From Dryococelus australis (taxonomy: Eukaryota; Arthropoda; Insecta; Phasmatodea; Phasmatidae), in assembly GCA_029891345.1 (NCBI GenBank), contig CM056993.1:228668765-228732764 (forward strand): a stretch of DNA of 64,000 nucleotides. Reading direction: 5' to 3'. A model generated the notes under the pieces. That model was not told where the DNA came from and ran no database searches. It saw nothing but the letters and a program-made list of their open reading frames with translations. Every line of letters begins with the position of its first letter. The first letter of the stretch is position 1. Below are positions 5,419-61,555 of this stretch, piece by piece. Made by a program: the position numbers and the translations under genes.

Positions 5419-5812
5419 AAACATTATGCAACCGTATCCTCAAGTAACTGCTTATTCTAGTATAGTGAAACATTAAGCAACCGTATCCTCAAGTTTCTGC
5501 TTATTCTTGTATAGTGAAACATTAAGCAACCGTATCCTCAAGTTACTGCTTATTCTAGTATAGTGAAACATTAAGCAACCGTATCCTCAAGTTTCTGCTT
5601 ATTCTAGTGTAGTGAAACATTAAGCAACCGTATCCTCAATTTTCTGCTTATTCTAGTGTAGTGAAACATTAAGCAACCGTATCCTCAAGTTACTGCTTAT
5701 TCTAGTATAGTGAAACATTAAGCAACCGTATCCTCAAGTTACTGCTTATTCTAGTATAGTGAAACATTAAGCAACCGTATCCTCAAGTTTCTGCTTATTC
5801 TAGTATAGTGAA
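5419..5812. repeat. 49-bp minisatellite, 8 copies
   Basis: Eight head-to-tail copies of a 49-base unit containing AACATTAAGCAACCGTATCC followed by a CTCAAG(T)TACTGCTTATTC-type half. Copies are almost identical: the recurrent difference is TTACTG versus TTTCTG, and the first copy has ATTATG for ATTAAG. The array ends at AGTGAAATGAACATTGG. Low divergence implies recent expansion or homogenisation. The period is not a multiple of three, and no coding role is suggested. Confidence 0.95.
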
Positions 5813-6334
5813 ATGAACATTGGTCTGCACCGTCGGGAAGCGGTGCGGAAAACCGCGAGCACTGTTCTTGAAGTTTGTAATGTATTAAATGAAGGAAATG
5901 AACAGAGTCAGATACAAATAAGTTAGCTACAAATGGAAAGAAAATTGTAATATTTCCTTACAAAACACCGATAAAATAGGAGGTAGACAAAATAATAAAT
6001 TTGTACGTCTATTCTGTGATCGTAAAATGTGTTATGAATACTTATTGCAAGGAAGAACGATGCTCCTTTGCATTTTTATGATTAAAATTGTATTAAATAC
6101 GGTTGCGAGACTGTCTGTCATGGCAACTTTACTTTACGTGGAAGAAAGAAATTATTATAGGGCCTATGGTACCATGAACAACTTTATATAATTTAAATAT
6201 TTGGATGATATGCATTCTTTAATTGTGAGATGATAGCTAAAAGGACTTCTAAATAGGCTTATACACACACATATTCACCACACTCACAAGATAAATTAAG
6301 GAATTATTTTTCTTTTATTTTAATGTCTATTATA
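5813..6334. other. Intergenic, nothing recognised
   Basis: No domain-bearing frame, RNA gene or repeat was recognised between the minisatellite and the mariner-like element. Confidence 0.5.
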
Positions 6335-7038
6335 CAGGTTGTTTAAACATTGCATGTCAATATTTTGGAGACACATTCCTCACATCTGGAGGATGAAAAA
6401 ATTTAATATGAACATAATTCCGCAAACGCGTATTTTCTTTACTACCGCACGTAATAAATAACGTACACTGTATGGCCCGCGGGTTGGACCATGTTACTGT
6501 GGAATACCACTGCAGCATTCGCTTGCATGATACGCGACACCTCACGCCACGACACTACACCTATATAACAGTAGGAACTGCACAGGAATTAGTTACACAT
6601 GTGTGAAAGCTTATCGTCGGCACTAAAGGAAATGTTCAGAATGCCCTCCATAAGCACAAACACGCCGTTACATGGACACCCGTATGCGTTGATGAATTAC
6701 GGATTGTTTCGCAAACCGCCATAATACAGTTACAGAGGGTGCCCACATCGTCCGCTGGGGTTGCATACACAAGTGCCTTTAAATTTCCCCATAAATATAA
6801 GTGTAGCGGATTCAAATTAGGGCTCCTCGAGGGCTGGCATGGGGCTGCCAATTACAGCTGCGATGGCATTCCACAGTAACATGATCCAGCCCGCGGGTTA
6901 TACACTGTAAATTATGTGTTACGGACTGCAGTAAAGAAACGAAGCGTTTGCGGACCTATGTTCTAATAACATTTCTTCATCCTCCAAATGTAATAAATGT
7001 TTCCCCAAAGTATTGATATTCAATCTTGCAACATCCTG
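6335..7038 (-). mobile_element. Internally deleted mariner-like element, long TIRs
   Basis: A 704-bp element flanked by TA (6333-6334 and 7039-7040), with outer ends CAGGTTGTT and its inverted partner ending AACATCCTG. The inverted similarity runs inward through a shared block (CATCCTCCA / CCGCGGG / GTTACTGTGGAAT), giving subterminal inverted repeats of roughly 170 bp. Minus-strand frame 6636-6851 keeps transposase C-terminal text (PSRSPNLNPLHLYLWGNLK, then ALVYATPADDV), the mariner-like DDE block with the catalytic region degraded. It is the same family as the copy at 12907-13531. It is non-autonomous and presumably immobile unless served in trans. Confidence 0.85.
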
Positions 7039-7127
7039 TAGTTTGTTCTGTATTGTAAATGTTTATCCTTAGAGTAAAAGTAAAGGTTTGTTTAACGGTT
7101 TTATGTTTTTGGTTTCTTGACAATTGT

Positions 7128-12549: not shown

Positions 12550-12906
12550 AGCGCTTAGCGGTGACTGTGTGTTACATGCGCAGAGATACGATATGTAGTT
12601 CAAATACGGTACAATAGCACGGCAGTCTTGCAGTACATACGGAACAGGGGACAGTTACGCAATAGTAAAGTATGCGCAAATAAGCTGAACAACTGTTACA
12701 TTATTTAAGCACTAAATCCCAGTGGTTTACAATCATCTCATGGATAGAAACTTGTGTTTTGTTATAATTCATGTGATACTGCGGTGATGCAGTGGAACAT
12801 ACAAAAAAAAACTTTAACAAAATGTAAACGGCGTATTGTCAAATGCGGTTTCCGACACATTGTGGGTTTTGTAGTTTTCATTCCTGTATTCATTGTTTTT
12901 TCTATA
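12550..12906. other. Intergenic, nothing recognised
   Basis: Spacer between the minisatellite and a mariner-like copy. Small frames extend into the mariner-like element and are not independent genes. Confidence 0.5.
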
Positions 12907-13531
12907 CAGGATGTTGCTAAATTACATGTCAATACTTTGGGGAACATCCATCTCATCTGGAGGATGAAAAAATGTTATATGAACATAGGTCCGAAAACGC
13001 TTCGTTTCTTTACTACAGCTCATAATACATAACGTAGAGTGTATGACCCGCGGGCTGGATCATGTGACTGTGGAATACTTTCACAGCTGCTATTGGCAGC
13101 CCCATTCCAGCCTCCGAGGAGCCCTGATTTGAATCTACTAGACTTTTATGTGTGGGGACACTTGAAGGCACTTATGTATGTAACCAGAGTGGATGATATG
13201 TACACCTTTCGTAACCGTATTGTGACGGCTGCGAAACTATCAGGAATACTCCAGGGAGTCATCAATGCATCAGGGAGTCCATGCAATGGCGGGTTGATGC
13301 ATGTTCCTGCTGATGGTGAGCATTTTGAACATTTCCTTTAGTGCCGACGATCGGCATTCTCAGACGTGTTCCTGCTCTGTACGGTTCCTGCTCTTCTTGG
13401 TATAGAGTCGTAGTGTGAGGTGTCGTGTATAATCCAAACGAATGCTGGAATGGCATTCCTCAGTAACATGATCCAGCCCGCGGTCCATACAATGTAACTT
13501 ACGTATTCACATGCAATTTTGCAACATTCTA
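12907..13531 (+). mobile_element. Internally deleted mariner-like element with transposase tail
   Basis: About 625 bp, TA before the left end (CAGGATGTTGC) and a degraded right end (GCAACATTCT then TATA). It is the second member of the family at 6335-7038. The frame 13039-13341 contains the transposase C-terminus: PPRSPDLNLLDFYVWGHLKA, a YVTRVDD segment and a terminal GEHFEHFL, the usual end of DUF4817-type arthropod transposases. The N-terminal DNA-binding part and first catalytic blocks are deleted. Both ends carry the CCGCGGGCTGGATCATGT-like subterminal repeat in inverted orientation. Confidence 0.87.
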
Positions 13532-17409: not shown

Positions 17410-17659
17410 CACTGAGAATAATATTTTTGTGGCGGCCACAAAATTATTTTGTTAGTATTCACCCTGCCAAATATTTTGTGGTGTACACAATACATTTTTT
17501 AGCTGGCACAAAATTAGTTTTTAGTGTCCACTAAACTTTTGTGGGCACTAAAAACTTATTTTGCCGCAGCTACAAAAATTTTTGTGAACACTACAAACAA
17601 TTTGGCACGGTGAACACCAACAAAAAATTTTATGACCGCAACAAAATATTTTTTCTGTG
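17410..17659. mobile_element. Palindromic MITE with TA target duplication
   Basis: The whole 250 bp is an imperfect palindrome centred near 17535. Left arm begins CACTGAGAATAATATTTTTG and the right arm ends with its complement (…TTTTTCTGTG). TA lies immediately outside both ends (17408-17409, 17660-17661), as expected for a Tc1/mariner-mobilised MITE. Interior landmarks pair arm to arm: GGCGGCCAC with the GACCGCAAC side, CTGCCAAATATTTTG with CAATTTGGCACG. No coding capacity. Confidence 0.9.
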
Positions 17660-21907: not shown

Positions 21908-23735
21908 GTGACCGTTTTCGCCGATTTAAAAATAAATTTGGGCTGTCCTGGGTCGTACCACGCCCACGTGGTGCGGCGCTATCTCCGCCCATATCACCAT
22001 AGCGACCTTGTTTTTTGTTCTTTTGTTGCAACAGCTAGACTCTACCCGGAGCCGGCCTACCATACCCACACAGGCTTATACTATGTCACGGCGGTGCCTG
22101 ACGTAGTATATGAGACAAGCATTCCGCTGGTATACAAACTCCAGCTGCAGTTTCTGTCCCCGCCTGAAGTTCTGGACCAATTCCTCCAAATTGCTTGTGC
22201 CGACCACAACAAGAAGACGTGTAAAAATGACAAAATTTTGTACGATTACATGTAGAGAATAGAAGCGGAGTACTGAGAGATTGCCACACCTACATCATTA
22301 CCACTTTCCATGTAAAGCGCGGCATTCAAGTCATAGGAGAGGTGTGTAGTTGGTGCTGCAACTTATTAACGAACAAGCACCTTCACGCTCTCCTACAAAA
22401 CGACTTAAGCCTTGACCAGCAAATCCGAGAACTCCCAGTCAAAATTTACAATACACACGCGTTGAATGTTTCTTTCAATATTGTTAATGATATCACCCAC
22501 AAAGTAGAAAGCAAAATCAACTCCCTATCCGAGGTTATAAATGGCATAACTACTGTATTTAAGTCCCAACAAACTGTATTTAGTACGGCTCGCTCTTTCG
22601 AAACACAAGTCCATTCAACTGTGACAAGTGTTTTACACCTTATGAACAACCTCATCATCGAACATTCCATTGAATCATTCATCCACTCATGCCAACTACA
22701 TCAACTGCCTCTTGCAGTAGTAAACAAAACTCAACTCACTCACATCCTCACGTCCTTGCTGGAACAGCTCCGCAAAATTAATCTTACGCTCAGGAACAAT
22801 CAAGGAACTATATAAGTCATATTCTCTTGAATTCACTGAGTGCTCGTTTTCAGAGCAGCAGTTAGTAATTAAATTGCAAGTGCCTATAATCGATGTTCAT
22901 TCTCAATGGCATGTTTATCACGCCAAGTCTGTCCCGTATCAATTCAACAATCATTCCTGCACACTCCAACTGCCATCTCCTCTCATCGCAATCGACCACA
23001 AAAAAGAATCTGTTAAGGAAAATTCACCACCCACTCACCCCTCCCAGGATGTTGTATTCCTCCCACCCGATGCTCTCATTGGCGACAATGCCAAATGTAT
23101 CACCTCAGCCATTTTGTTTATTGACGTCACATCATTGTTCACCTCATGCAAGTACCACTGCACGCCTACCGTACCTTCTCTGTCACCAATATTTTCCCTT
23201 ACTGGTTTTTTTAGCCAACCACTCTCTCAATACCACGCTGTTATTTACTAACTCATCTTTTGACAAAATCATACACACCCGCCCCTTAACAGCTGTTGAG
23301 CTCCATGTCCCGTGTGGTTGCAAGGTCACCACATCCTCCGGCATCATCACTCATGACACACATCTGTTTGATATGCGGGCTCCCATCGTCACCCTCCATC
23401 AAACGGCCATTCCGGTACATTGGCTATCTGAGCAGTCTTTCCACATTCCCCAACTGTCCCTACCAGAGGGCATTAATTTCTACAACATACCGGCTGCTCT
23501 GATTACTGATTGGCATCTCAACCATACCGACTTCCCTATTTTGCAAGGTGCTGTTCCCAGCCCTACAAGTGGGTGGCTTTTTAACTCCCCTAGCCTATTT
23601 TCCCTTGTCGACCATGCTCATTCTGACTACTTCACTCTCGCCACATTGTTTTTCCTGCTATGCATTGGGACCGCTATTTACATTGAGTTAATAAAAATAT
23701 ATACCCTCCTTATACGCCTTACTGCACCACACTGA
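21908..23735 (+). pseudogene. Env-like glycoprotein remnant of retroelement
   Basis: Three pieces in series: 21908-22255; 22342-22815, a helical segment rich in N-glycosylation-type Asn (heptad-like LPVKIYNTHALNVSFNIVND); and a C-terminal piece in the 22893-23735 frame with a Cys pair in VPCGCKVTTSSG. It ends in a hydrophobic stretch (YFTLATLFFLLCIGTAIYI, about 23627-23683) followed by a short tail and stop. This order matches the membrane-anchored envelope protein of insect errantiviruses. Frame changes and stops make it non-functional. The family is inferred from layout and membrane anchor, not from a search. Confidence 0.62.
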
Positions 23736-24859: not shown

Positions 24860-27082
24860 AGTAGTAGGAAATAGTATGTTAGGGCATTAGGGCGTGGGGC
24901 GTCCGAGCCGGAGCCGGGGAAACCACAATCTTGTTACATCACCGAAAACCAAATTGGATGTCTTTGACCATAACCTTTCACCAGTGACCTTGATCTTGAC
25001 CCCAAGGACCTTTGACCTCAATTAACACTAAAAAACATTTTGAAAATTCAAAAAATTGCAAAAGATTCTATACAATACAAAAAAAAAAATCCTACACTAA
25101 GTAATATAAAAAATATTTACAATTATAAAAAATTGTTTTAAAAAATATGAAAAGGGTCCTCAGAAATAACCCATTATTTCCAGAAATGCTGACATGTATC
25201 AGCAACCTAAGTGCTAGGGATCACTGACCCAGGGTCAGACAGGTAACCGGTATCAGTACCTTTGACATTTGACTTTGACATTTGACCTCGAAAATGAAAA
25301 CAGCCACAAAGTATAAAGAATTCACAAAAAATACCAAAAAGCACGAAAAATTTTAAAAAAAATTACAAAAAATTACAATTAAAAATTAGTTATTGAAATT
25401 ATTAAAATATCATTAGATTTTTATAAAACTTACATTTCCGAAAGTACTCCAGCACAATGCACAGCAGACGACTGACTCCCTCGCACACACTCCCTTCACC
25501 AATTCTAATTCCTTCATGTAGATTTTTTCGTTCGTCATTTGTTTACATGCTACTGTAGGCAGGCATCTTTGTTTATATGTTACTGGAGGCCGCCATATTG
25601 GTTTTTCATTCGTTATTTGTTTAAATGCTACTGGTGACAGCCATCATTGTTTATATGTTACTGGAGACCACCATATTTGTTTTTAGTTTGTCATTTGTTT
25701 ATACATTACTGAAGACCACCATCTCGGTAGGCGACTGCCACCTTGATAGGTGACGGCCATTGTAATTTTCCATCCTATGTTCAAAAATTACTTTTTTTTC
25801 GAATAAATGGTATAGCTACATGCATGATGCATGACATACTACATGTTTAATTTATTAAATACTTTAAATACATATTGTTGTTAGTAAAAACATAAAGACC
25901 AACAGGAGGATACGACACACAAATGTTAAGAAAACAAATAATTTTATTATAACAATTTATTATTTTTTTGTAAATATATTTTCACAAGAAAGTAGTTCAT
26001 CACATCATCAGATATTACCGTGATCCTTAAGTGCTCTTATGATCGAAACCACCTCTTTCATGGCCGAGTAATCCACATATTGTTGCCTATCAAGCAAATA
26101 TTTAAGTCTGTTTATAAGTTTGTTGTGATCTTCGGTAAACATATCGTCAGTATACTCGATGTCTTCTGCCTTCTTCACATCACTTGTCGAAGGAAACTAG
26201 TTGGGGACATGTGAAGGACCATCGAGGGAATAATCATCGTCTTAAACACTATCTCTGGTCGTCATAGACACCATCAATGCTGTCTGTATGATCGGCTACA
26301 CTCCCTGCTGCATCTCAATATCAAGTTTACTTTTTTGTGTAGCAAGAGTTATATGTTCATCAGTATTTAGAGCTGACGACTTCACACGAACATCTTGCAA
26401 GTGTATATTCCGCACAAACCGACAGTATTGCACTCATTCCGTCTTCAGCATTAACTATGACGTTATAATCGTCTGCAGAAACGGTACCCATCGATGTAGC
26501 AGGAGGTTTTGATGGCATCACTTGCTGGTTACCAGTAGACGAACCCTCTCGACAGACAGCGAAGAACTGATCGAACACACGTCTGTACCTTTCCCTATGT
26601 AGCAGACAGTCCTTACCGGTTATCAAAAACCCATATTTATTTTTCCTGCACAAGGCACATATATTTCTGAAATCTGATAGAGTCATGTCCGTATTCACAT
26701 GATCATCGTAAACGTGGCGTAAATTAGTATCGTCCATGCGAAACAGCACCAACATGTTTGCATTGTCGTGAAGCATCTGTTTGGGTATTCGCAAATAAGT
26801 CTGACCGAGGTACACAGTCCACATTCACGTGTCGACCCATGATAAAGTATTCTTCAATACAAGTTTGTTTCTCGCAGGCGATGTTGTCAAAGACAAATAT
26901 CGAGTTTCGCATTTCTTCGTTCTGAGGTACGACGGCTTCGTTATCACTGTCTGGGAAATAACCCATGGCTTCCACGGCCTTCAGTACTCGTACCAATGGC
27001 TTTCTACTTCGGTTGCTGGAACGATTTTGAATAAACGTACACGTTCTCGAACCGAAGGCCACTTGGTTCTTCCAGCAGGCTC
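24860..27082. repeat. Left arm of foldback element 1
   Basis: Inverted partner of 27784-29991. The inner edge ends exactly where the sequence complementary to GAGCCTGCTGGAAGAACC begins; beyond it the two sides are unrelated. It also holds A-rich low-complexity sequence (25020-25440) and (G/A)CCACCAT repeats (25560-25760). Confidence 0.9.
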
Positions 27083-27639
27083 AGTAGGATGCACGTCTTG
27101 CCGCAACTCGATGGACCCGCGATGATGCACCTCACTGTATTCGGAAATAGGCTTCCATGACGCGATTTGTGGGAGATAACTTCATCATCAGCATGAATGC
27201 GTAGGGTTAAAGTAAAATCTTGCATGATAATACGTATGTTACCACTACTATCTTGCAGTGAGTGCGATGCTGATTGTGGTGCTTATTGTGAATGTTGTGC
27301 TGATTGTGATTGTGGTTCTGATTGTGATTGCAGTGCTGATTGCATTACTGATTGCGGTGCTGATTGTGGTGCTGATTGTGGTGCTTATTGTGGTGCTCAT
27401 TGTGGCGGTTATTGTGGTGCTGATTGCGGTGCTGATTTTAGTTTCAGAGAACCAGTCCTACAAATTTTAGAATGTCTCTTCAAAATATCATTCCGTGTAA
27501 ACTGTCTCTGGCAGAAATGGCACTGAAATGACATTCTTGTAGTTTTCATCCTGCAGGTCATTTTTTCATGTCGACGCACGCTGCGCAGAGCTGTAAATGC
27601 TTTACCGCGGAAGCGATAAAGCATATGCATCATTGACAT
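26010..27639 (-). pseudogene. Zinc finger / SAPQ repeat / A32-like ATPase gene, decayed
   Basis: Read on the minus strand. First a C2HC finger (FQCHFCQRQFTRNDILKRH, then SKIC; about 27525-27460). Next an in-frame SAPQ-type tetrapeptide repeat (27440-27262). Then a P-loop, CIIAGPSSCGKT (27094-27117), and after one frame change a Walker-B-like strand, NSIFVFDNIA (26877-26906), with GRHVNVDC, as in A32/FtsK-HerA packaging ATPases. After a second frame change come DNANMLVLF, YDDHVNTDMT and KYGFLITGKD, also typical of that family. An acidic tail with several stops ends near 26010. ATPases of this group pump DNA into virus capsids; what it did here is unknown. The second Walker-B acidic residue appears to be Asn. 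Up to the first frame change the finger, repeat and P-loop share one frame, broken only by stops within the repeat. Confidence 0.75.
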
Positions 27640-27783
27640 TTTTACATCTGTATTGTTACAAGTCTGGAATGATACTGAAATGAAAATATATAAAAGGATC
27701 GTATTTATTCCTTTCTCGCCTTCTCATGCCAGCATACATTTTGAACATAGACGAAAACTATATTGCAAAATTGTCACTAGCGA
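27083..27783. other. Unpaired centre of foldback element 1
   Basis: Loop between the arms. It holds the only copy of the zinc finger, the SAPQ repeat and the P-loop segment, all on the minus strand and continuous with the left-arm gene. The last 150 bases (27640-27783) show no feature. Confidence 0.8.
27262..27440 (-). repeat. 12-bp repeat encoding SAPQ tetrapeptides
   Basis: Imperfect 12-base units (plus strand GCTGATTGTGGT). On the minus strand, in the frame of the flanking finger and ATPase segments, they read Ser-Ala-Pro-Gln. Several units carry TCA-to-TAA or TCA-to-TGA changes that make stops. The antisense plus frames (Cys-Gly-Ala-Asp or Val-Leu-Ile repeats) are by-products. Confidence 0.88.
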
Positions 27784-28810
27784 TGAGCCTGCTGGAAGAA
27801 CCAATTGGCCTTCGGTTCGAGAACGTGTACGTTTATTCAAAATCGTTCCAGCAACCGAAGTAGAAAGCCATTGGTACGAGTACTGAAGGCCGTGGAAGCC
27901 ATGGGTTATTTCCCAGACAGTGATAACGAAGCCGTCGTACCTCAGAACGAAGAAATGCGAAACTCGATATTTGTCTTTGACAACATCGCCTGCGAGAAAC
28001 AAACTTGTATTGAAGAATACTTTATCATGGGTCGACACGCGAATGTGGACTGTGTACCTCGGTCAGACTTATTTGCGAATAACCAAACAGATGCTTCACG
28101 ACAATGCAAACATGTTGGTGCTGTTTCGCATGGACGATACTAATTTACGCCACGCTTACGATGATCATGTGAATACGGACATGACTCTATCAGATTTCAG
28201 AAATATATGTGCCTTGTGCAGAAAAAATAAATATGGGTTTTTGGTAATCGGTAAGGACTGTCTGCTACATAGGGAAAGGTACAGACGTGTGTTCGATCAG
28301 TTCTTCGCTGTCTGTCGAGAGGGTTCGTCTACTGGTAACCAGCAAGTGATGCCATCAAAACCTCCTGCTACATCGATGGGTACCGTTTCTGCAGACGATT
28401 ATAACGTCATAGTTAATGCTGAAGACGGAATGAGTGCAATACTGTCGGTTTGTGCGGAATATACACTTGCAAGATGTTCGTGTGAAGTCGTCAGCTCTAA
28501 ATACTGATGAACATATAACTCTTGCTACACAAAAAAGTAAACTTGATATTGAGATGCAGCAGGGAGTGTAGCCGATCATACAGACAGCATTGATGGTGTC
28601 TATGACGACCAGAGATAGTGTTTAAGACGATGATTATTCCCTCGACGGTCCTACACATGTCCCCAACTAGTTTCCTTCGACAAGTGATGTGAAGAAGGCA
28701 GAAGACATCGAGTATACTGACGATATGTTTACCGAAGATCACAACAAACTTATAAACAGACTTAAATATTTGCTTGATAGGCAACAACTCGACCATGAAA
28801 GAGGTGGTTT
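27784..28810 (+). pseudogene. 5'-truncated second copy of the A32-like ATPase gene
   Basis: Near-identical inverted copy of the left-arm gene, starting just after the P-loop, so it has no Walker A motif, repeat or finger. It carries the same two frame changes as the left arm (after SFQQPK, and near VDCVPRSDL), the same NSIFVFDNIA strand, and the tail ending CAEYTLARCSCEVVSSKY before a TGA at 28505. Beyond it the acidic tail continues with stops (FPSTSDVKKAED, DDMFTEDHNKL) to about 28810. It cannot encode a working ATPase. Confidence 0.8.
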
Positions 28811-29991
28811 AGATCAAAAGAGCACTTAAGTATCGAGGTTATAACAAATGATGTGATGAAGTACTTTCTTCTCAAGATGTATTTACAAAATAATAATAAA
28901 CTATTATTACAAATATTAGTTTTTCTCAATTTTTGTGTATCGTATTCCTCTGTTGGTGTTTAGTTTTTCATAACAACAATGTGTATTTAAAATATTTAAT
29001 AAATTATGCATGTAGTCAGTCATGCATCATGCATGTAGCTTTACCATTTATTCAGAAAATAAGTATTTTTTGAACAAAGGATGGAAAATTGCAATGGCCT
29101 TCACCAACCAAGGTGGCAGTCGCCTACCGAGATGGTGGTCTTCAGTAATGTATAAACAAATTATAAACTTTAAAATACTATGGTGGCCTCCAGTAACATA
29201 TAAACAAAGAGGTATAGTAGTATGTAAACAAATGACGAACGAAAAAACACATATTGTGACCTCCAGTAACATATAAACAAAATGGTTGCCTCCAGTAGCA
29301 TGTAAACAAATGATTAACGAAAAAATCAAGTTGGCAGAATGAGTACAGATGAGGGGGAGTGGGTGCGAGTGTGTCAGTCGTCTGCTGAGCATTAAGGTTG
29401 GGGGGGGGGGCGACCTGCTTTGGAAATGTAAGTTTAAAAAAATTTAATGACTTTTTAAAAATGTTTCAATAAAATTTAATAATTAATTTTTAGTTTAATT
29501 TTTAATAATTTTTATTTTTTTAATTTGTTTGTGATTTATTGGAATCTTTTGTGATTTATTGGAATTTTTTGTTAATTATTTTGATTTTGTTGTATTTGTT
29601 ATTTTCAATGTGAAAGGTCAAGGTCAAAGGTCAAATGTGATTATCCCGGTCACCTGTCTGGCCCTTGGTCACTGATCCCTGCACCTAGGTCGCCGATCCC
29701 TGTCAGCATTTCTGGAAAGAAATGTGTCATTTCTGAGGATCATTTTAATATTTTTTTATTAAAATATTTTTATTAATTTTTTAATAATTTTGAATAATTA
29801 TTTATTCAGTATTTTTTATTTGTGGAATTTTTTAAGTAGTTTTTGGAATTTTTAAAAATGTTATTAAAAGGTCGTGGTCAAGGTCAATCAAATTCAAGAT
29901 GGCGGTTGGTTACTTAACAATATGGCAGCTCACCCTGCTCTGGCTCCGACGCCCCACGCCCTTATACCCAAACATACTATTTCCTACTACT
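27784..29991. repeat. Right arm of foldback element 1
   Basis: Inverted partner of 24860-27082. Outer part (29070-29320) has four to five copies of CCTCCAGTAACATATAAAC-type repeats; 29615-29633 has three adjacent AGGTCA motifs; a G-run occurs at 29400-29410. Confidence 0.9.
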
Positions 29992-37942: not shown

Positions 37943-39669
37943 CTAGGGGGCCGCAAATGACGCCATGGCTTCGAGAAGTAGCCAGGTTCCCTCATGTTTT
38001 TCTGTTATGTTGCGGAGTTTTAGTATGTAGGGGTGGAAATGAGCCATGAGCGAGGCGAAGTCGCATGCTCGAAGGAATTCCATGAGTTCATGGAAATCCT
38101 GCATTACGTTTCGCATCTCTCCTGACGAATTTCGCTGGCGAGGGCGGGACTGGGGTTGTGTATTTGGCATTGCAGGGGTGTCAAGAGTGGGAGCTGGTTT
38201 GTGAATAGACGCAGAGAGTGCCTGCGAATACGTTTTGCCAGGCTGTAATATCCTGACTGTGAACCTGGACGGGGCAGGAGGTTGTTTGGCAGTTTTCGGC
38301 GCGATTTTCGTAGCAGCAGCAGTAGTTCTTTTCTGCACCAAGTCCAGGAACTTGGGGCAGGTTTTTGAGAGAGCTGTGTGGTCGCATGCGCAGTTACTGC
38401 ACGTCGGCTTGGAGTTGGTTTCGTTTTTTTTGTAAGCACTCTCGGGGTGAGGGCCTGCGCAGTGAGGGCATTTTGTCGGCATGGAACATGATTTTTGGTG
38501 TGTCCTAAAGCGAAACAGTTGCGGCATTGCGCCACGTCTGTCGGCCGTTTCTGGTATTGTCGGGGATGAACTATTGTCATATTTATTCTCGTGACAGAGT
38601 GCAGAGGAGGGATAGAAGTGTTCTGCGCCGCCGTGACACAGAAAAAACGTTGCGGCTCCAACGTGAATTTGGTGGGGTCTGTTTGGTTTGTGATGCGTTT
38701 TTTAAATTGATAAATGTGCTGGATTGAGTATCCGACACATTCCAGGTCTGTCTTGATGTCCGCAATGTCGGTTGTGGGGTGGAGGCCAAAAACTACTTTC
38801 TGTGGGAGCTCGGAAGCTTGACAGAAAGTAAAGTAATGGATGTAGTTCGCTTCTAGCATTGTGCGAGCAGCTGTGAAAAAAATCAAAGTTTTTAGTGAGG
38901 ATTTGCGTTCCGCGAGCTGTGGGGAGAAGGGAGAACCCGTCCCTACTAATAGCTCGCAGTTTCTGAACAAGTAAGTTGTATTTTGTGGCGTCAGGAACCA
39001 CTAATCTGTACTGGTTTTGTTTTTTTTCCGTCGTGTTTGTGGTGCAGCCGTTTGTGTTTTGTGGGTGGAGATGCTTGAAGAGCCGGGATGGTTAACTGCT
39101 GAGGTTTTTTCTGTTACCTCCTTAAGCGGGGAAAACCTATTTTGTGTAGGAATGGTGTTTGAATGTGTCTCAGACTACACAGAATGGAGACGCTTGTTCT
39201 CCTGCGTGGTTGTTCTGTCCCCTTTTCGTTTTACTATCGGGAAGTCGGTTTCCATTTCAAATGTTTCATTTCCTGCGGCCGGTGTTGACGGTCGGGAGGA
39301 AGTTGGTGTGGTCATTGTTGGCGTCGTTGGTTCCGTAAGAGTAGCCAGGAGTATGTCAATGTGGTCGGGGATGCCTTGAGGAAAAATGTCGTAAACAGTT
39401 TGGTGATTAGGTCGTCTCTTTGCCAGTTCTAAATATCGCTTGTTTTCCCGGAGGTACTGTAAGGAGTACGGGCCAGTTCCCGTCATCCACGACGGCTCAG
39501 TCGGTTCCCCGCCCGCCGCCATAACCCGAGAGGGGGGTGGGGGAGGGGTAGGCTCTTTGTGGAGCGACTCTCGATGTGTTGTTTGCAAATTGCGAGAAAT
39601 TGTTGTTAGAAAAGTACCTAGATCGGTGCTATACACTGTGACCGCTGACCCACTAGGGGCTAGGCTCAA
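37943..39669 (-). pseudogene. Jockey-type LINE ORF1 (gag-like), frameshifted
   Basis: ORF1 proteins of Jockey-type LINEs bind the element RNA. The N-terminal piece (39669-39175) is Pro/Thr-rich. After a frame change come NRFSPLKEVTEKT and VVPDATKYNLLVQKLRAI, then a PRE_C2HC-type domain (KVVFGLHPTTDIADIKTDLE, about 38810-38750; RINMTIVHPRQYQKRP near 38580). Three CCHC knuckles follow: CRNCFALGHTKNH (38540-38500), CPHCAGPH, and CSNCACDHTALSKTCP in a shifted frame. The C-terminal frame ends at 37943. At least three frameshifts and one stop make it dead. No ORF2 follows. Confidence 0.82.
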
Positions 39670-42018
39670 GATGACCTGTTTCCAGGCCGATCACAGTGTA
39701 CAGGGTGTGTGCCGCGAAGCTATTAGTCGTATACGGCCAGAAGAAGTAGAGACGCACTCTCCTTAGGCGAAGGCGAAGGCAGCACTCGCGTGAGAGTGTC
39801 TGTGAGGAGTAAACAACATGTACTCTACACTACATTACTGCAGCTTTGTGTTTTTGAGTCAGTCAGTATGCGATGCCTTGCAATGCTGGTATTGCCTACG
39901 CACCTCCTACTGTATCGCAGCCGCCGAAAGTTTTGTATGTGTATCAAGCGAATACAGTGGGTTCTAGGAAGTTGCAGCGAGAGGATTTATTTTTTTTTTG
40001 GTAAATTAGATCAAATTTCTCAATAAACTAGCATCAAATGATCATAAATTCTGGCGGTCGAAAAGATTTCGTTCAAAAAATGGTGACCATTCCTGTTATT
40101 TTCATTATGGGGTTAGGTATCAGTAAGTTTTTCTCTCCTGGAAAAGATCCCGGTAGCAAAAAAACAATGCTCGGAGAGTTTTAATTTAGTTTTGCTTCGT
40201 TTCTGTTTTTTTTAAATAGTTAATAAAGTTTAAAATAACAATTTTTAAGGGCTCATATCTCTATTACTATCCAATTTAGCTGAAGTAACTAGGTCATGCA
40301 CTCAAATTGCAAAAGGGCAAAGTAATTTCCTTTGCACTGTTCCTGTGGTGTGATCGTCAGACTATTCACACCCCACCAAGGCGAATCACGGCGGGGTCAT
40401 CCGGATTGCCGCATGTGCGGAAACATGACGGACGTTGCCGGTGGCAGGCGGGTTTACTCTCAAGGCACTCCACCGCTGGTCCATCTCCACCCTCACTGGC
40501 GCCCCACACTTCGCTAAGCGTCTCTCACAATCTCTCCACTTATTTACGCTGCTCCAGTAGTCACAACCAAAACTTGTATGCAAGTATTTTGCAAATACGG
40601 TTGAATAACGACAGTATGAAGGAGTTTTGGTCAACACAGTCCTGTATTCTCTTGATCTCCAAGTATTGAGGTCTTCTGTAGAGGATATACAATGCACGCT
40701 TTAATTGAAGTGGTTTATAGAGGCGCATGAACATGATAGCAAACGACACAAAATAAACATGTTCGAGCTTCGTTCGACATCTACGGCCAATGGGCTTCTT
40801 TTGTTTCCCGCCAGCCTGTTTTGGATACCTGACTGTAAAATGCCGTGATATGTCTTCCCACTTCGATACCACAATAATTGTTAGCTGGTATGTGTTGTGG
40901 AAAATAAGAGGTTAAACACTTCTCAATTATTAAGATATCCATTACTATACGTCGGTGTAATGTTAATTCTAGTGTGAAATCGAATTGAAATCGCTCGTTA
41001 AACTTCTCTCTGCCAATAAACTGACTTACTTATATTTCAAATTCTTTAATCCATCAACAGTGTCACGTGATTTAAAAAATGTTTTATAACAGCTATATTT
41101 TAATATCCTACATACACTCCTTCATTATTCCTTTGGTTATTAGCCTGGTGTCGTTGTGAGTAGACATTCGGATACTTAAAGGACTAATCGGAATTTGTTA
41201 ACTGTGGTATTTCAAGAATGGTATTCGCAGGCAGCTACTGAGGAGGCATATTTAATAAATATTACAGTCGCGAAAGTGGATATTAACTAAAGAGTTGTGA
41301 AATACGACAATGCAAAAATTCTTTTATTGCCAAAACCCCAAGTAAGCGTAACATTCGAAGTTTTTGGTCTTGCTGAAGGAAGATTTCTTTTTATAGTGTA
41401 TCACATACAGGAGGCTGGCTCTCTTCCATTTTCCGCCACTACTCCATCTCTAGTTGTATCAACCATTATTTTTGCTAGAAGAGAACAACATACCTGTCCT
41501 CGAACCGAGCAGTTGGCTCCGAAATAAATTAAGCTCTTCACATAAATGAGCTCATGAAGGTGTCTCTCCAGCGTAGGCTAAAACGTAGTCATATCTAACT
41601 AAGTAGATAAACTTCTATACGACATTTTAAATAGGTATGTTCATCTTTTAACCACACTTTTAGCCCAAAACTTGTACCAAACATATTTTTTTCAATGTAT
41701 AGCTTTTAGTTTCTGTCCTTTAGTGTGCATTAGGAAAAATAGACGGTAAATTGTTCTTTAGTAAATTTTTCTATTCATGTGCATAATTTCATCACGCAAT
41801 TAAAGAAAAGATATATATTTTGTCCAAAGCAAGTCTCACATAATCAAATCATTATGAGATACCTGCCCATAACTTCAATTATGATGCTGTGCCCCAATTC
41901 CTGGCTTATAAATAATTCATAATAAATATAAAATTATGATGTATGAAAATACTGACTATTTTGAAATGAAAGTAGTGAAGCAAAAGGGAACGTTCACAGA
42001 TGATTGAATAAAGTTGTA
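39670..42018. other. Intergenic, nothing recognised
   Basis: It includes the region upstream of the LINE ORF1 (possible 5' UTR to about 39830). The frames at 40307-40872 and 41297-41527 have no domain. It lies downstream of the CFAP100-like gene's 3' end. Confidence 0.45.
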
Positions 42019-46758: not shown

Positions 46759-49700
46759 GGCATCTGGAATGTCGGATCTGGATCCGTTCGTCATATTGGC
46801 AGACGAAGCTAGAGGCCATATTGGTCGGTGCAGTCTGCGACCTTAGTAGGCGTCATAGCCACAGTCCGCCATCTTGATAGACGTCACAACCACCATCCAC
46901 CATCTTGGTATGCGCGACCGGCGGCTATATTTGTTCGGTACAGTCCACTATCTCGGTAGGCATCGCAGCCAGGACGGCTATGTAGGTCGGTGAAGTCCGC
47001 CATTTTGGTAGGCGTCCCATACAGGGCTCGATTCCATGTTGGAGTTATTCCCCCTCAAATCACCAAAAACAATTTTAATAAAAAATATTTTAAAAACCAT
47101 TTTCATAACAAATGTCAAAAACAAATTATTTCAAAAAAAAATGTTTAAAAAATTAACACTTGCCGCCAGCACACATTCCCTCACAGTAACACATATCAAC
47201 ACTCTTAAACCCTTCAATAACCCAGTGATCCATGACCTTGAACATGAAGCATGACTTTGACTTATGACCTTGGCCCACGACATTCACTATGACCTTGGCC
47301 ATGACCTTGTAATCTTACCTTGACATTTGCCCATGTCCTTAACCTTGATTTATAACCTTAACCTTCACACATTACCTTAACCCTGACATACAAACTTAAC
47401 ATTGGCATATAAACTTAACCTTGACATATAAACTTAACCTTACATATGACCATAATCTTGACCTATGACATTGACCTTGACTTATGACCTTGTCCCTTGA
47501 CCTTGATCCTGGTGACCTTAAAATAAAAAATGGCGAAAAATATTTAACATTTCTTTTAAAATCGAAGAACATATGTCAACCAACCCCACAACCATAACAA
47601 ACACCCCACACCACCTCGGCATTGGCTTTGCATAACATAAATTATCCCTGCACCCATATCAATCAATGGTATATGCCCATTGACCACTAAATTACTTTAC
47701 CACATATTTTTCCAGTATTGGACACTGTATATAGTTTGCTGGTTATCTTTTTTTTGCATCTACCACCAGAGAGCTCCCCGTAATCCGTTTCGAACCTTTT
47801 TTGGCGACTCTAAATATAAAGTATTTAATGACAATATTTTATTCTAGAAATGTAGAAACAAAAATTATAAAAATCGAGGAACATACAACATGAATCTCGC
47901 GCATCATCTCACCACCTTCACATCACCCTCTCCTCTCAAAAGCAACCCACCAAATCACAAAAAATCTAGAAAAATTGCAAAAAAAAAAATCGAGGAACGT
48001 ATAACATTAAAATCACACTCGTCCCATAACACTCGCTGACCCTCTGTCTGCCCATCGCTCAAAACGTAAAGAAATTGAGAAAAATAGCATAAAAACAAAA
48101 ATAAATTAATAAAAGTTTAGGAAAACATTACATCAGTGATTCCGACACCCATGCTGGATGTTGGTGGCCTTGACCTTGACCCAAATGACCTTGAATTCGA
48201 AAAACTACAGAAACGTACAAATCCATCGAGTTAGAATTACATACCTAATACTAAAAATCAAGTAGGGTGTGTATGACCCTAAAAGTTATATTCTTGTAAT
48301 GATGGCAGAGCATATCCAGTTCCTGGTATGACAAGTAGATCTCTGAATCTCTCCCTATATATTTAATTGGATATAGAGCTGGTCACACTTACGACCCCAA
48401 AGTAAGTTATTAAATTTATGTAGCACATATATCCCCTCTCCCTTCCTCTTCCATTGACAACACAACTCTGTCGCTCTAATTCCCTCGTCATTTACTTACC
48501 ATAGCTCATCCACCATCAACATATATGTATGTCACCCTCCATGAAAACGACTCCCCCCCCCCAACTAATCTAACCACAATAGCTTGAAATAGCTCGTCCC
48601 CTGCCATCCACCTTCGCTATCAACCAACCACGCGATATCCCACCCCTTTCCCTTTCTCCAAATGAAACACCAACCAGTTTCTGAAGAGACGTAACTCTAC
48701 TCAAAACTGGCTCTTGCCATGGCCAATTCAAGCAAAATGGCAAGGACAGTGGTCAGGACTAATCTACCATACCACCCAGCTGTAAAATCAATCGATGACA
48801 ACCAATCTCGAAAAAGTCCACTAATGTGAATGACCAGTCAACTAACCAGTTGTGAAACATTCCTGAAAATTATTCCCCAGTTTATTCATTCACATTATAG
48901 AACTCAGCCGATTTTTAAATCGACCCGAGAAAAGCATAATAATTCATATCCTACCATGCTCGCTCCTCTTACATACACTTGCATACATTGTATTTAAAAC
49001 AGACTAGTAATCGATCGTACACACCACTTAATTAATAAGATTTCAGGGAAGCGGAATGGAATGACTAAGTAATTAAACTCAAATTACTATGTATCCAAAC
49101 ATTTATGTTATTTACTTATGGTATACATGCTGTATTTATAAATATTTAATATATTCTATCTTTACATTTCTCGTATGTTTGTAGATTATGGATAGTAGCC
49201 AACTGTGTCATCTGATATAACACCGATCCTTCAGTTCACATAGTAGATATATCGTTAATGTGTAAGAAATATCCATCTGGTTGCAAAGCGATCAAATGTC
49301 TGAGTCTATTAACAGGTTTTTTCGGGTTTTCGGTAAACATGTAATTGGTATTCCCAGGGTCATCTTAGTCTCCATTTGGCTCATTACAGCAAATAAAAGT
49401 GCGTTCTTGGTGCCTTTGGCCTTCTTCACACCACTTGTCGAAAGAAAATCATTGGTGAAATGTGTGGGAATGTCGAGAGAATCATCGTCCTTCTGATTAG
49501 ATACTTCATCAACACTGTCTTCATAGTCATTATCATCAATGTTTTATTTATGATATTCTTAACCTTCTCTTTCAACCTCAACATCAACTGTAATTTTCTT
49601 TGCAGGTGTCGCATGGTCATCATCAATATTTAGAGACGACAACCAATTATTTTGAAATTCAGCGACTTCATGCGCAAGTCTTGTAAAGGCACATTCCACA

Positions 49701-50576
49701 CAAACCGACTTAAATGCACTAGTTTCGTATCTAGCATTAACTGTCGCATCACTAATGCCCATCAATGCAGTATGGTTTAATGGTGACATCACTTGCTAGC
49801 TTCCAGTAGACGAACCCTTGTAGATCTAGATGTGTTCCTTCAATGTATCGCCTTGCATAAACTGCTCGGTACTAATGTCCTAATGCTTAATTGCACGAAA
49901 AGGGCTCATCGTACATGTTGTTCTTTAATGCCGCCGAGTATGGTAGCTTTTCCTGGAGATCTTCACATAGTAGGAACACTGTTTTCCAAATAATTTTCCA
50001 GCGGTGGGAGAAGGTACATCTATATAGGTAAGCTCTATAGTAAACTTCGTACAATCATTTGCCTGAACATATTCATGACAAAACTAACATTCTTTCCAAA
50101 GTAGTAACTTGTGAATCTACTTTGCCTAGAAACTGCTGTATATACAAACTTACACACATATTACATCAGTGAGATTTAAACAATTTTATGTATCCATTCA
50201 ACGAGACATTTTATCTATTTCTTTGATCACATTACCATGCAGTTACATCTTCAACAGTTTCTTCCAGACAAGTTATTTGCTCAGCTTTAACTCCGTAAGT
50301 GACCTCTCATGATCTATAAATTACCCCTAAATGACTCCAAAAAGACCCCAAAATGTCTCCACCTGCTTTGCGAAAGACCCCTCGTGATCTAAACATGACC
50401 ACACTTGCTCAACAAATGACCTCTCACACTCCACAGCTGACCTCTTCTACTCCGCAAATGACACCTCCTGGTCCAGAATGACTCCTCTTTCCTTGATAAT
50501 GACCTCCCTTCATCTGCAAATGACCCTTCACGCTCAGCAACTGACCCTTAATTCTCCGCAACTGATCCCTCCCCCA
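46759..50576. repeat. Left arm of foldback element 2
   Basis: Inverted partner of 51489-54925. From the outside in: repeats of CCATCTTGGTAGGCGTC type (46790-47010), TGACCTTG-rich stretch (47220-47510), AT-rich spacer, minus-strand protein remnants (49160-50130), and a degenerate 20-to-30-base TGACC(C/T)CTC repeat (50290-50570). The inner limit is approximate. Confidence 0.85.
49160..50130 (-). pseudogene. Left-arm copy of element 2 protein remnant
   Basis: Minus-strand copy of the right-arm coding region. The best frame (49559-49792) reads ATVNARYETSAFKSVCVECA and an acidic SSLNIDDDHATPAKK segment, corresponding to the right-arm VKSVCVECELTRLSHEV region and to the tail of the element 1 gene. 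Upstream parts match the right-arm zinc-finger text but are broken by stops and frame changes. Not functional. Confidence 0.65.
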
Positions 50577-51488
50577 ATCCAGGCTTCGCATTCATGTAGT
50601 GGATTTGCTGGTGTTTTATGTTGTAATTCTCTGTAGTTAGGTAGAAGGAAATCAGCAAGTGCCTATTTGCCAAGTAGATTGGGCCCGCTTGTTATCAGAT
50701 TTACATATCTTACTAAAGTCAAAGTCCAACTCAAAATCTTGGAATCCATTTCTTCTTCACCTTGGCATAACTGTTGTATACTATCGGCAACAGTGCTTTC
50801 TATTGCATCTACGTTATACACAAAGCTACATTCGAGGCATTGAATGCTGTAGTACAATATTCGTTATTGTGAGGCTCTGATTTTTTTAGCTACAGCCAGA
50901 TACAAAATATATATAATCCGCCATATTTTTCTACCTCATCGATAAGATGGTTTATAATATTATGTTTCATTCTTGACAATAACGAGTAAATATCTTGTCA
51001 TATTCGATTAAACATAATATTTAAGAAGACCGCTGAATGCAGATCGCTTCAGGAAAATACCATTAACATTAGGCGTCGATTCGCAGAGCACTGACTTAGG
51101 TTGTATTGTACAATCAAGTTTCGTTGATGCAGGTCGCATCTTCATGTTCGTTGAAGTGAAAGGAAGGTCTTCGTATTCACAATTATTCTTCGTTGTATGA
51201 CGAGAGAAACCTTACAAATCGATGGTTTCAGAACGACAACTGCCATTTTCGTACACAAAATCCATTGTTTTTACAGTAAAGAGTCCAACCTCTGCTCACA
51301 GAAGGCATCATGTCGAATATTTTAAATATAAAAATATGGAAGTACGCTGAGAAAACCCACACACTCGTTCACGCCAGAAGAAAACATGCAGATACCTATA
51401 TACAAATATAAAATATTTTTTTCATTAATTTATATGCATACACATTGAATAGAATTTTTATACCACAAAAAAAAACGACAATTCGAAG
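50577..51488. other. Centre of foldback element 2
   Basis: Unpaired loop of about 0.9 kb. Small overlapping frames at 50659-50880 on both strands show no domain. Unlike element 1, no P-loop or SAPQ repeat is visible. Confidence 0.6.
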
Positions 51489-54400
51489 ATGGAGGAGCAT
51501 GAAGGTTCATTTCCGGAGCAGGAGAGGTCATTGTTCAGGAGGGATCATTTGAGGAGCAGAAGTTGTCATTTTCAGAGCAGGAGGGGTAATGTTTAGGGAC
51601 TGGGGTTATTTGTGGAGCAGGAGTGGTCATTTGTGGAACAGGAGGGAAACATGTGGAGCAAGAGGGGACATTTGCGGAGCAGAGGGGTCATTTGTTGAAC
51701 ATGTGGTCAAGCTGAGAAAATAACTTGTTTGGAAGAAACTGTTGAAGATGTAACTGCATGGTCTTGTGATGAAGGATATATATATCGTTGAATGGTTGCA
51801 TAAAAATGCTTAAATCTCACAGATGTAATATGTTTGTAGGCTTGTATATAGAGCAGTTGCTAGGTAAAGCAGATTCACAAGTTACTACTGTAGAAAAATG
51901 TCAGTTTTGTCATGAATATGTGCAGGCCAATGATTGTAAGAAGTCTACTATAGAGCTTACCTATATAGATGTACCTTCTCCCACTGCTGGGAAATTATAT
52001 ATAAAACAGTGTTCTTACTGTGGGAAGATCTTCAGAAAAATCTGCCATGCTCGGTGACAATAATGAACCACCTGTGCGAAGAGTCATTTTCGTGCGATGA
52101 AGCATTACGACATTGGTACCGCACAGTTTATGTAAGGCGATACATTGAAGGAGCACATTGAGATCTGCAAGGGTTCGTCTACAGGAAGCCAGAAAATCAT
52201 CTCACCAATAGCTCATGCAGCATCTGTAGATATTGAGTCGTCAGGCTATATTGACGAGATAGTTAATGCTAAGGATGGAATGAGTTGAGTAAAGTCAGTT
52301 TGTGTGGAATGTGAACTTACAAGACTGTCGCATGAAGTCAACGAATTTCAAAATAAACGGTCGTCGTTTGTAAATACTAATGATGAACATTCGACTCCCA
52401 CAAAGAATTATACACTTAATATTGAGGCTGAAACAGCATGTTAAGACGATCATAAAGAGAGCATTGATGATAATAACTATGAAAACACTGTTGATGAAGT
52501 ATCTGATGATAAGGATAATGTTTCTCTCGACATTCCCACACATTTCACCAGCGAGTTTCCTTCGACAAGTGGCGTGAAGATGGCTGAAGACGTCAAGCGC
52601 GCTCGTTCATTTGCTGCAATGAACGAAATGGAGAAAGGCAGATGACGCTGAGAATACTGACCACATGTTTACCGAAGACCCGAATGAACATGTTGATACA
52701 CTCAGACATTGGATCGCTTTGCAACACGATGGAGATTTCTTGCACATTGAGGAGGTATCTTTAATCATTTGTGGACTGATGGATCGGTGTTATATCAGAC
52801 GAGACTATTGGTTGCTCTCCATGATCTGAAACATCTGCGAAATGTAATTATGAAATGTATTAAAAAATTAGAAAGATAGAATGTATAAAATAATTAAGGA
52901 AATTAAATTAATTACACCAAAATATATGAATCTGATTTATTAATCAGACCTTTCTGCTTCCCTGAAAGGCTTATTAATTCAGTGGTTTGTGAAATCTATT
53001 GTGAGAGTATGTTGTAGATGAAATTTATGCTAAAGTGTGCAGGACCCGGAGGGGCCATGGTACGAGCTCAAGTATTATGCCTTACTCGGGTCCATTAAAA
53101 AATCGGCTGAATTCTGCAGGGCGAGTCCTTTAAAAGAGGCCCCGTGGGACATGTGTGTAATGGAGTGATGGAATGAGGAAATGCAGACCACGGGGACTCT
53201 TTTAAAGGACTCTAGCCTGTATAAAGCAAACGTATGAACTGGAGAATATTTTTCATGAGTGTTTCGCAAGTGGCAAATTGGAATGGGCATTTGCATTAAT
53301 TGACTTTTTCGAGATTTGTTGTCATCGATTGATAGTATAGCTGGGTAGTATAGTGGATTGGTCTTGACCACCGTTCTAGCCATTTTTCAGGAATTGGTCT
53401 TGGCAAGAGCTAGTCTTGGGTAGAGTTACATCTCTTCAGAACCGGTTGGGGTTTTGTTTAGAGAAAGGGAGAGGGGTGGAGAATCGTGTGGTTGGTTGGA
53501 GGCGTGGGTGGATGTCAAGGGGACGGGCTATTGCAAGTTATTGTGGTGTTTTATTAGATGGGTGAAGGGGGGGTAGTCGTTTGAATGGAGCGTGACATGC
53601 ATATATGTCAACAGTAGCTGAGCTAAGTTAAGTAAATGGTGAGGGAAACAGTGATGACAGGTGTGTTGCCTTGGGGGGGGGGATGTAAAAGGGGTTATAT
53701 GTGCTACATAAAGTCAGCAGTCTGCTTTGGGGGCCGTAAGATTTATCAGCTATACAAACAATGAAACGTAGAGGCGGGGTTCAGAGCGTGCTTGCCGTAC
53801 CAGGGAGTAGATGTGCAGTGCCATCTTTACAAGAATCGACATTTTAGGGTCACACACATACCACTTGTTTTTTCTTAATAGGAATGTAATTTTTACTCAC
53901 TGGTTTTTTCAATTTTTGTTATTTCTTTGAAATTTTTCTCGATTTTACGAGCTCACGGTCACTTAGGTTAAGGTCAATTGCATCAACATCCAACTTGGGT
54001 GTCGAAATCATTGATATAATATTTTCCTAAACTTTTATTAGTTTCTTTGCGTTTTTTTTTTTTGTAGCAATTTTTCTCAATTTTTTATGTGGGGGTTAAC
54101 GAGGGAGAGGGGCGAGTTGAGTGTAATGGGATGAGTTGCTCTATTTGTTAAATTTTTGCAATTTTCTCGATTTGTTATGATTTGGAAGGTGGTGAGAGGG
54201 AAGCGGGTGTAGCGAGGGTGTTGGTATGCGTGTGAGGTTAATGTTGTATGTCCGTAGATTTTTAGAATTTTTTCAAATATTTTTTCTTCTACTTTTCTCG
54301 ATTAAACTATTACGTGTCAATACTTTATGTTTGGAGTCATCAAAAAAATTTGGAAATTGACAACATGGGAGCTCTCTGCCGATAGATGATAATAAATAAA

Positions 54401-54925
54401 TAAATAACTACCAAACTATTTATAGTGTCCAATAGTACTGGCAAAATATGTGTTAAAGTCGTACTTTAGTGACCAATGGGTGAAGCAATAATTTATGTTA
54501 TGTAAAGCCAACGGTTGGGCAGGGGTGGAGTATTTGTTAGAACTGTGGTGTGGGTTAACATAAGTTCTTCGATTTTTAAGAATTATTTTACTTTTTTCAG
54601 TATGTTTAGTTTCAAGGTCATAGGTCCAGGTCAGGGTCAACGTCTTGGTCGAGTTCAGGTATAAAGGTCTTGGGTTAAGGTTATGAGGCACTGGGTTGTT
54701 GAAGGTGTTAGGAGATATGAGGGGTGTGATGGTGAGAGGATTATATATTTTTTATTAAATTATTTTTTTTAATAATTTTTATTGGAATAGTTTTTGGGGA
54801 TGGCTAACATGGCATGGCGCCTAGGCTGTGACGCCAAACAAGATGGCGGACAGCGCCGACCAATATGGCCGTCGGTCGCACCTACCACGATGGCGGACGT
54901 ATCCAGATCCGACATGCCAAATGCC
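51489..54925. repeat. Right arm of foldback element 2
   Basis: Inverted partner of the left arm. 51489-51715 is a G-rich degenerate repeat (GGAGCAGGAGGGGTCATTTG type) complementary to the TGACCCCTC repeat of the left arm; then protein remnants (51788-52800), G-rich spacer, AGGTCA-type motifs (53950-53975, 54600-54660), and CCACGATGGCGGAC-type terminal repeats (54835-54900). Confidence 0.85.
51788..52800 (+). pseudogene. Zinc-finger / acidic-tail protein remnant of element 2
   Basis: First frame, 51788-52057: a Cys-rich segment with VEKCQFCHEYVQANDCKKS and QCSYCGKIFRK, both CxxC. After a frame change comes a finger-like GDTLKEHIEICKG (about 52130-52170). The tail follows: SSTGSQKI, EIVNAKDGMS, a stop, VKSVCVECELTRLSHEV, then acidic text to SEFPSTSGVKMAEDVK (about 52590) and DHMFTEDPNEH with more stops. 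The tail from SSTG onward parallels the tail after the ATPase of element 1. No ATPase domain is present. Function unknown; a nucleic-acid-binding role is a guess from the fingers. Confidence 0.65.
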
Positions 54926-61107: not shown

Positions 61108-61555
61108 TGCGTCTGTGGCTCAGCGGATTAGCACGAGGGTTCGCGCTGCTCAACTTTAGGTTTTAGAATTTAAATCTCCGTCGTATAACGACATTTGTTT
61201 AGTTACTTTATGTGATACATTATTGCAGGTCATATTTTAAGTTATTTTCAGAAAACGTTTATTTCTAGACTATATTTGTCTAAAATCAATAATACTAACA
61301 AATAACACAAACCAAAGCTAAATCGAATAACCACAGGCAGCCGACTGCACTGTGCAGTTACTTGCATATTATTGCTTTTAGACATATATATTCTAGAAAT
61401 AAATCTTTTCTAACAATAACATACATGATAAACAACAATAATGAATCACATAAAATAACCAATGAAATAACGTTACACGACGGAATTTAAACTGTAAAAC
61501 CGAAAACTTTGTAGCGCAAACCTGCGCACCAACGTATTATTTCCCGCTTCATTCG
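61108..61555. repeat. Inverted pair of tRNA-headed repeat starts
   Basis: 61108-61300 and about 61320-61555 are inverted copies. The head-to-body path from the CGTCGTATAACG phrase through TTATTTCTAGA and TGTCTAAAA(T/G)CAATAATA recurs on the opposite strand, ending at CGTTACACGACGGAATTTAA (61481-61500). Confidence 0.75.

Follow-up and report, generated by a model that had tools for sequence, protein, structure and literature searches.

Introduction

Mavericks/Polintons are considered to stand close to the root of several lineages of eukaryotic DNA viruses. Here we describe a foldback, element 1, at positions 24860-29991 of a 64,000-nucleotide stretch of the Dryococelus australis genome (contig CM056993.1, forward-strand positions 228,668,765 to 228,732,764; hereafter the window), together with its relatives. 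Intact vertebrate Mavericks measure 12.7-24.6 kb, and the relevant sections of PMC8097293 give (AGT)2//(ACT)2 as their commonest end motif, report 6-bp target duplications, and expect the end repeats to take part in jumping back during protein-primed replication. In insects, Spodoptera Sf-Maverick 1 and 2 are multi-gene elements of nine open reading frames (ORFs), including an A32-like ATPase (ATP) of 228 aa and a PolB for which Endonuclease VII is named, weakly; no foldback form is described in the relevant sections (PMC5803895). Galileo, a Foldback-like element assigned to the P superfamily by its transposase, has long, repetitive inverted ends, which lengthened by taking in internal sequence, as well as non-autonomous foldback copies (relevant sections of PMC3573991).

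Element 1 shares with Mavericks/Polintons (adintovirus-like) its (AGT)2//(ACT)2 ends, long terminal inverted repeats and an A32/FtsK-type packaging ATPase of ~230 aa. It differs from them in carrying the ATPase inside the inverted arms with no recognised polymerase, integrase, protease or capsid gene, and the compact units of its family are only 3.9-6.5 kb long. The likeness to Galileo is one of form, whereas the ends, duplication length and gene of the foldbacks described here are of Maverick type. We conclude, with a probability of about 0.82, that element 1 represents a decayed member of a non-autonomous, foldback-shaped mobile family derived from insect Mavericks/Polintons and moved in trans. 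A preliminary description, made from the letters of the window, had left the element outside any named transposon class; its ends, duplication length and ATPase now place it as a Maverick/Polinton derivative. Among the literature matches listed, no title or abstract opening dealt with foldback Mavericks.

Results

Element 1 is a decayed inverted repeat of 5.1 kb in which a left arm of 2224 bp (24860-27083, +) and a right arm of 2208 bp (27784-29991, -) flank a loop of 700 bp (27084-27783). Gapped self-alignment of 24860-27083 with 29991-27784 gave 84.9% identity over 2285 columns (E = 0.0), and the coordinates, arm length and loop of the preliminary description proved right. Both ends open with AGTAGTAGGAAATAG, and the same 21 bp, AGTAGTAGGAAATAGTATGTT, form the left terminus (24860-24880, +), which begins with (AGT)2, and in reverse complement the right terminus (29971-29991, -), which ends in (ACT)2; AGTAGTAGG was likewise found at both termini. 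These ends are of Maverick/Polinton type and match the commonest motif published for vertebrate Mavericks. Further inside lie two subterminal motifs, CCACCATCTTGGTAGGCG (25716-25733, +; mirror copy 29121-29138) and TTGACCTTGACC (24990-25001, +; mirror copies at 29616 and 29876). Each has 8 matches in the window, against chance expectations of 0.01 for CCACCATCTTGGTAGGCG (<=3 mismatches) and 0.31 for TTGACCTTGACC (<=1 mismatch), and in each case 8 of 8 fall inside element 1 or a second foldback, element 2. TTGACCTTGACC is always on the + strand in left arms and on the - strand in right arms of both elements.

The D. australis assembly (3.4 Gb) was searched with the left arm of element 1. Scoring 40 of 12,659 candidates yielded at least 95 match pieces, so this copy number is a lower bound. 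Twenty loci were examined, and inverted pairs that include inner arm sequence were found at ten (L011, L013, L015, L018, L020, L022, L024, L025, L026, L027), a rate that is biased because the loci were partly picked for inverted pairs already visible. Two further loci hold partial pairs (L012, L014) and eight show a single arm in the stretch seen. The ten pairs are of foldback type, being repeated units with long inverted arms, little sequence between them and, in some of them, target duplications around the pair. Loop and arm lengths differ widely from copy to copy. At L012, an extra diverged inverted pair (5517-6091, +, and 6147-6790, -) with a very short loop and 66-67% identity to the arm adjoins the main copy.

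Six units have both ends, and 10 of these 12 ends carry an exact AGTAGT. A perfect 6-bp target duplication surrounds three of the six: L027 (4049 bp, CACTTG), L025 (3908 bp, TTCCAT) and a unit of 27,773 bp at C3:107698744-107726516 (L029-L033, CGCGTG; hereafter the C3 unit). Two more have a 5-of-6 match, namely L011 (5246 bp) and L018 (6488 bp), the latter when its outer left end is used and not with its second, inner left end; element 1 has none. The terminus is present twice in tandem at the left end of the L018 foldback (L018:1670 and 2075). Thus 6-bp duplications like those of Mavericks, two of them with one mismatch, accompany five of six two-ended units. The preliminary description had proposed a reduced, virus-derived mobile element that kept its arms and an ATPase, and this proposal is borne out by the repeated units, the (AGT)2 ends and these duplications, the last of which were seen in other copies and not in the window's own.

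The same data bear on whether the inverted repeat could be an artefact of sequencing or assembly. The inner 1 kb of the arms is 99% identical, as an artificial inverted duplication would be. The outer arms, in contrast, differ by 8-37% per bin and the arms of element 2 by ~25%, and other loci show this structure too, each with its own flanks and with other target duplications. An artefact is refuted by how far the outer arms have diverged, and we assign it a negligible probability.

The ATPase gene reads outward in both arms of element 1 and is broken into three frames. The decayed left copy (26555-27237, -) was recovered by tblastn with a relative, P0001, at 62%, 52% and 67% identity in frames -2, -3 and -1; the right copy (27762-28312, +) lacks the P-loop end. 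All 35 of 35 ATPase queries matched both arms at E < 1e-5. The two frame breaks lie at identical places in either arm; therefore, the last homogenisation of the inner arms came after the breaks, and the gene is consequently of no service to the element 1 copy. The outward, decayed ATPase of the preliminary description is thus present in both arms. Its GPSSCGKT motif, which we take to be the P-loop (Walker) motif, is confined to the left side, where it lies in the loop half (ORF 27004-27282, -) beyond the palindrome, and is therefore not duplicated by it.

The longest raw ATPase frame matched 23 proteins (E <= 0.01), and 18 of these relatives, once aligned, gave 3509 matches at E <= 0.001. Among the matches listed, 120 of the 3509 in the case of the alignment, the few with an organism name were insects (Popillia, Trachymyrmex and Cyphomyrmex in the alignment search, Dryococelus in the single-frame search). 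The assignment to the A32 type was upheld by Pfam, where 18 of 18 aligned relatives matched Pox_A32 at E <= 0.01. A structure model of P0001 of modest quality (mean predicted local distance difference test score, pLDDT, 70) had viral packaging ATPases as its Foldseek neighbours, with TM-scores of 0.4-0.6. In order, these were a bracovirus protein, giant viruses and a MELD virus protein, with an adintovirus FtsK-like protein lower (E 0.009); among PDB structures the STIV2 packaging NTPase came first, although its E of 0.003 is weak. The Cotesia congregata bracovirus is known to hold a partial Maverick (relevant sections of PMC5803895). PDB sequence searches gave no credible match, IMG/VR and GTDB scans no confirmed relative and phage records no match, and no homologue was found for the tail that follows the ATPase. 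We conclude that the element 1 ATPase is of insect Maverick/Polinton type.

At all 20 examined genome loci the ATPase was broken or partial, while in the C3 unit the part seen of either arm's copy is free of stops. Beyond the arm at L019, a second ATPase was observed (5529-6187, +; 38-48% identity to P0001 in three frames) that is more divergent and oriented like an opposite arm; L019 is possibly a hybrid unit holding two ATPase lineages.

Pfam revealed no PolB, integrase, capsid or protease in 23 raw frames of elements 1 and 2, in agreement with the preliminary description, although for capsid and protease this negative is limited because decayed capsid genes are hard to see. A P-type transposase likewise had no Pfam match in these frames. 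With no PolB within the element, it is therefore a derivative of Mavericks/Polintons and not a full member. Besides the P-loop end of the ATPase, the loop contains a C2H2 zinc-finger frame (27409-27723, -) whose Pfam match is weak (E 0.005-0.006) and falls short of the curated cut-off. A 12-bp minisatellite, TGATTGTGGTGC, lies between that frame and the ATPase at 27253-27444.

PolB is present elsewhere in the genome: when 91 of 6289 candidates were scored, at least 54 DNA_pol_B_2 match pieces emerged. One genomic PolB frame has an Endonuclease_7 domain and an adjoining weak C2H2 frame. A single comparison of the loop zinc finger with this C2H2 frame gave 32% identity (E 1e-7), which may reflect generic C2H2 likeness and was set aside.

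An alternative history is one in which the family consists of ordinary Mavericks with unusually long, ATPase-containing terminal repeats, and in which a deletion following insertion removed the middle of those copies that now appear as foldbacks. The loci with a single arm and the wide variation in loop and arm lengths would suit such a history, as would the C3 unit, whose arms stand ~21.6 kb apart between perfect 6-bp duplications. However, ~15.9 of those ~21.6 kb were read, and 10 of 14 frames of >= 90 aa, one of the 14 falling within the arm, were scanned with no Pfam Maverick domain found; the C3 interior may be a nested insertion or captured host DNA. Furthermore, the inverted pairs at L025 and L027 are compact, at 3.9 and 4.0 kb, and stand within perfect duplications, and the arms are absent from two PolB loci. 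We regard loss of the middle after insertion as a real, if lesser, possibility.

The two arms of element 1 are not evenly alike. Their near-identical inner tracts (26080-27083 and its mate 27784-28787) have 9 differences in 1004 bp, and identity falls in a sharp step at ~26080/28787 to 63-92% further out (bins of 100-150 positions), with many gaps. Twelve pairs were compared in this way (element 1, C3, L011, L013, L015, L018, L020, L022, L024, L025, L026 and L027), and in 12 of 12 the inner arms were more alike than the outer. A sharp step was also seen in C3, from 74-77% over 600 bp to 97-100% over 2.4 kb, and the gap was small in L013, L015, L020 and L022 (inner 81-83%, outer 75-78%, longest matches). 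Since inner identity exceeds outer identity in every pair, sometimes with a sharp step, the arms seem to have been homogenised in tracts.

The mate arm was the best match in six of the 12 pairs (element 1, C3, L018, L024, L025 and L026) and was not in L011, L013, L015, L020 and L022; in L027, the short left arm best matched its mate and the right arm did not. The C3 ATPase is free of stops in both arms, yet the outer ends of these arms differ by about one quarter; either the ends were unlike already at insertion, or conversion continued afterwards. In element 1, the CpG observed/expected ratio of the inner arm (26080-27083) is 1.13 and that of the outer arms 0.63-0.72, as would fit an inner tract that is younger or of coding origin.

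Near-identical inner arms could also be preserved for another reason, if the locus were a long hairpin kept for small-RNA production against Mavericks, with its inner arms, which carry viral ATPase sequence, transcribed into double-stranded RNA. Such a role would account for the near-identity of the arms in C3, L018 and L025, as well as in element 1, where it extends over a broken gene. Nevertheless, the position of the near-identical tracts varies between copies and the unit behaves as a transposon. The nine inner differences were uninformative, as wobble-compatible changes numbered two for a + transcript and four for a - transcript, with no clear enrichment. We consider a hairpin-RNA locus very improbable.

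Element 2 (~46759-54925) is an older foldback of the same kind, with arms at ~46759-50535 and ~51495-54925. Its arms are 71-76% identical in two main pieces and 74% overall, with no sharp step; identity falls towards the ends, but the innermost bins are low too. The two elements have in common a post-ATPase region (28320-28712, +, in element 1, with its left counterpart at 26155-26547) that matches element 2 at 52170-52597 with 66% identity over 431 columns (E 2e-27) and has the same outward orientation in both arms of both elements. The order of CCACCATCTTGGTAGGCG and TTGACCTTGACC is not the same in element 1 as in element 2. The ATPase was not detectable in element 2: none of 35 queries gave a window match outside element 1 better than E 0.06. 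A weak zinc-finger match between the elements was not relied upon, since its single high-scoring segment pairs had E 0.007 and 0.061 and an unrelated place in the window scored 0.013.

Other short palindromic repeats lie in the window at 6331-7040 and 12903-13507, 17441-17631 and 61152-61509, and blastn matched none of them to element 1 or element 2. Long frames at 37943-39690 (-) and 22231-23735 (+) appear by eye to be retroelement gag-like and membrane-protein-like, and have no Pfam match.

Discussion

Several observations weigh against a Maverick/Polinton derivative moved in trans. Element 1 itself has no target duplication, its flanks TATTCT/GATGCC agreeing at 3 of 6 positions. An autonomous partner sharing these ends did not turn up, nor did any of the longer relatives with polymerase, integrase or capsid genes that the preliminary description had proposed looking for. 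At two PolB loci (each of 9.9 kb, one of them extended by a neighbouring 5 kb), the ATPase and the arms are absent, with the exception of a single 73-bp match to the subterminal repeat. A single arm in the stretch seen at 8 of 20 loci (L009, L010, L016, L017, L019, L021, L023 and L028) partly answers to what the preliminary description had named as counting against it, arms occurring singly in other copies, beside the inverted pairs at 10 of 20. The ends of element 2 are uncertain, and it has only part of the arm in common with element 1. Additionally, the outer ends are the most divergent between copies too (mostly 66-72%, some short pieces higher), and faster decay of AT-rich ends may be part of the contrast between inner and outer arms. 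Finally, the way in which the foldbacks formed is one that we infer.

In the derivation that we favour, full Mavericks would provide the protein-primed polymerase and the integrase in trans. The arms would grow inward when one end is copied onto the other by strand switching in the homologous ends or, alternatively, when a break is repaired from the opposite arm. Such growth would be comparable to the extension of terminal inverted repeats in Galileo (relevant sections of PMC3573991). Pairing of the arms would then lead to gene conversion, by which the inner part would be kept homogenised.

A further proposal is that insect Mavericks have, in these foldbacks, a satellite lineage that stands by itself. 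Its palindromic genomes would replicate and integrate in palindromic form through Maverick enzymes supplied in trans, would keep the packaging ATPase in both arms and would have reached high copy number. The ATPase may matter to such a satellite, because one unit within a perfect duplication has a stop-free ATPase stretch in both arms. We hold this proposal to be unlikely.

If the derivation from Mavericks/Polintons is true, a gene-poor foldback family that uses Maverick ends would represent a satellite-type parasite of Mavericks in an animal genome. Its arms would record strand switching and gene conversion in protein-primed replicons. Furthermore, the foldback family may account for some of the numerous stray A32 ATPase genes that insect genomes contain.

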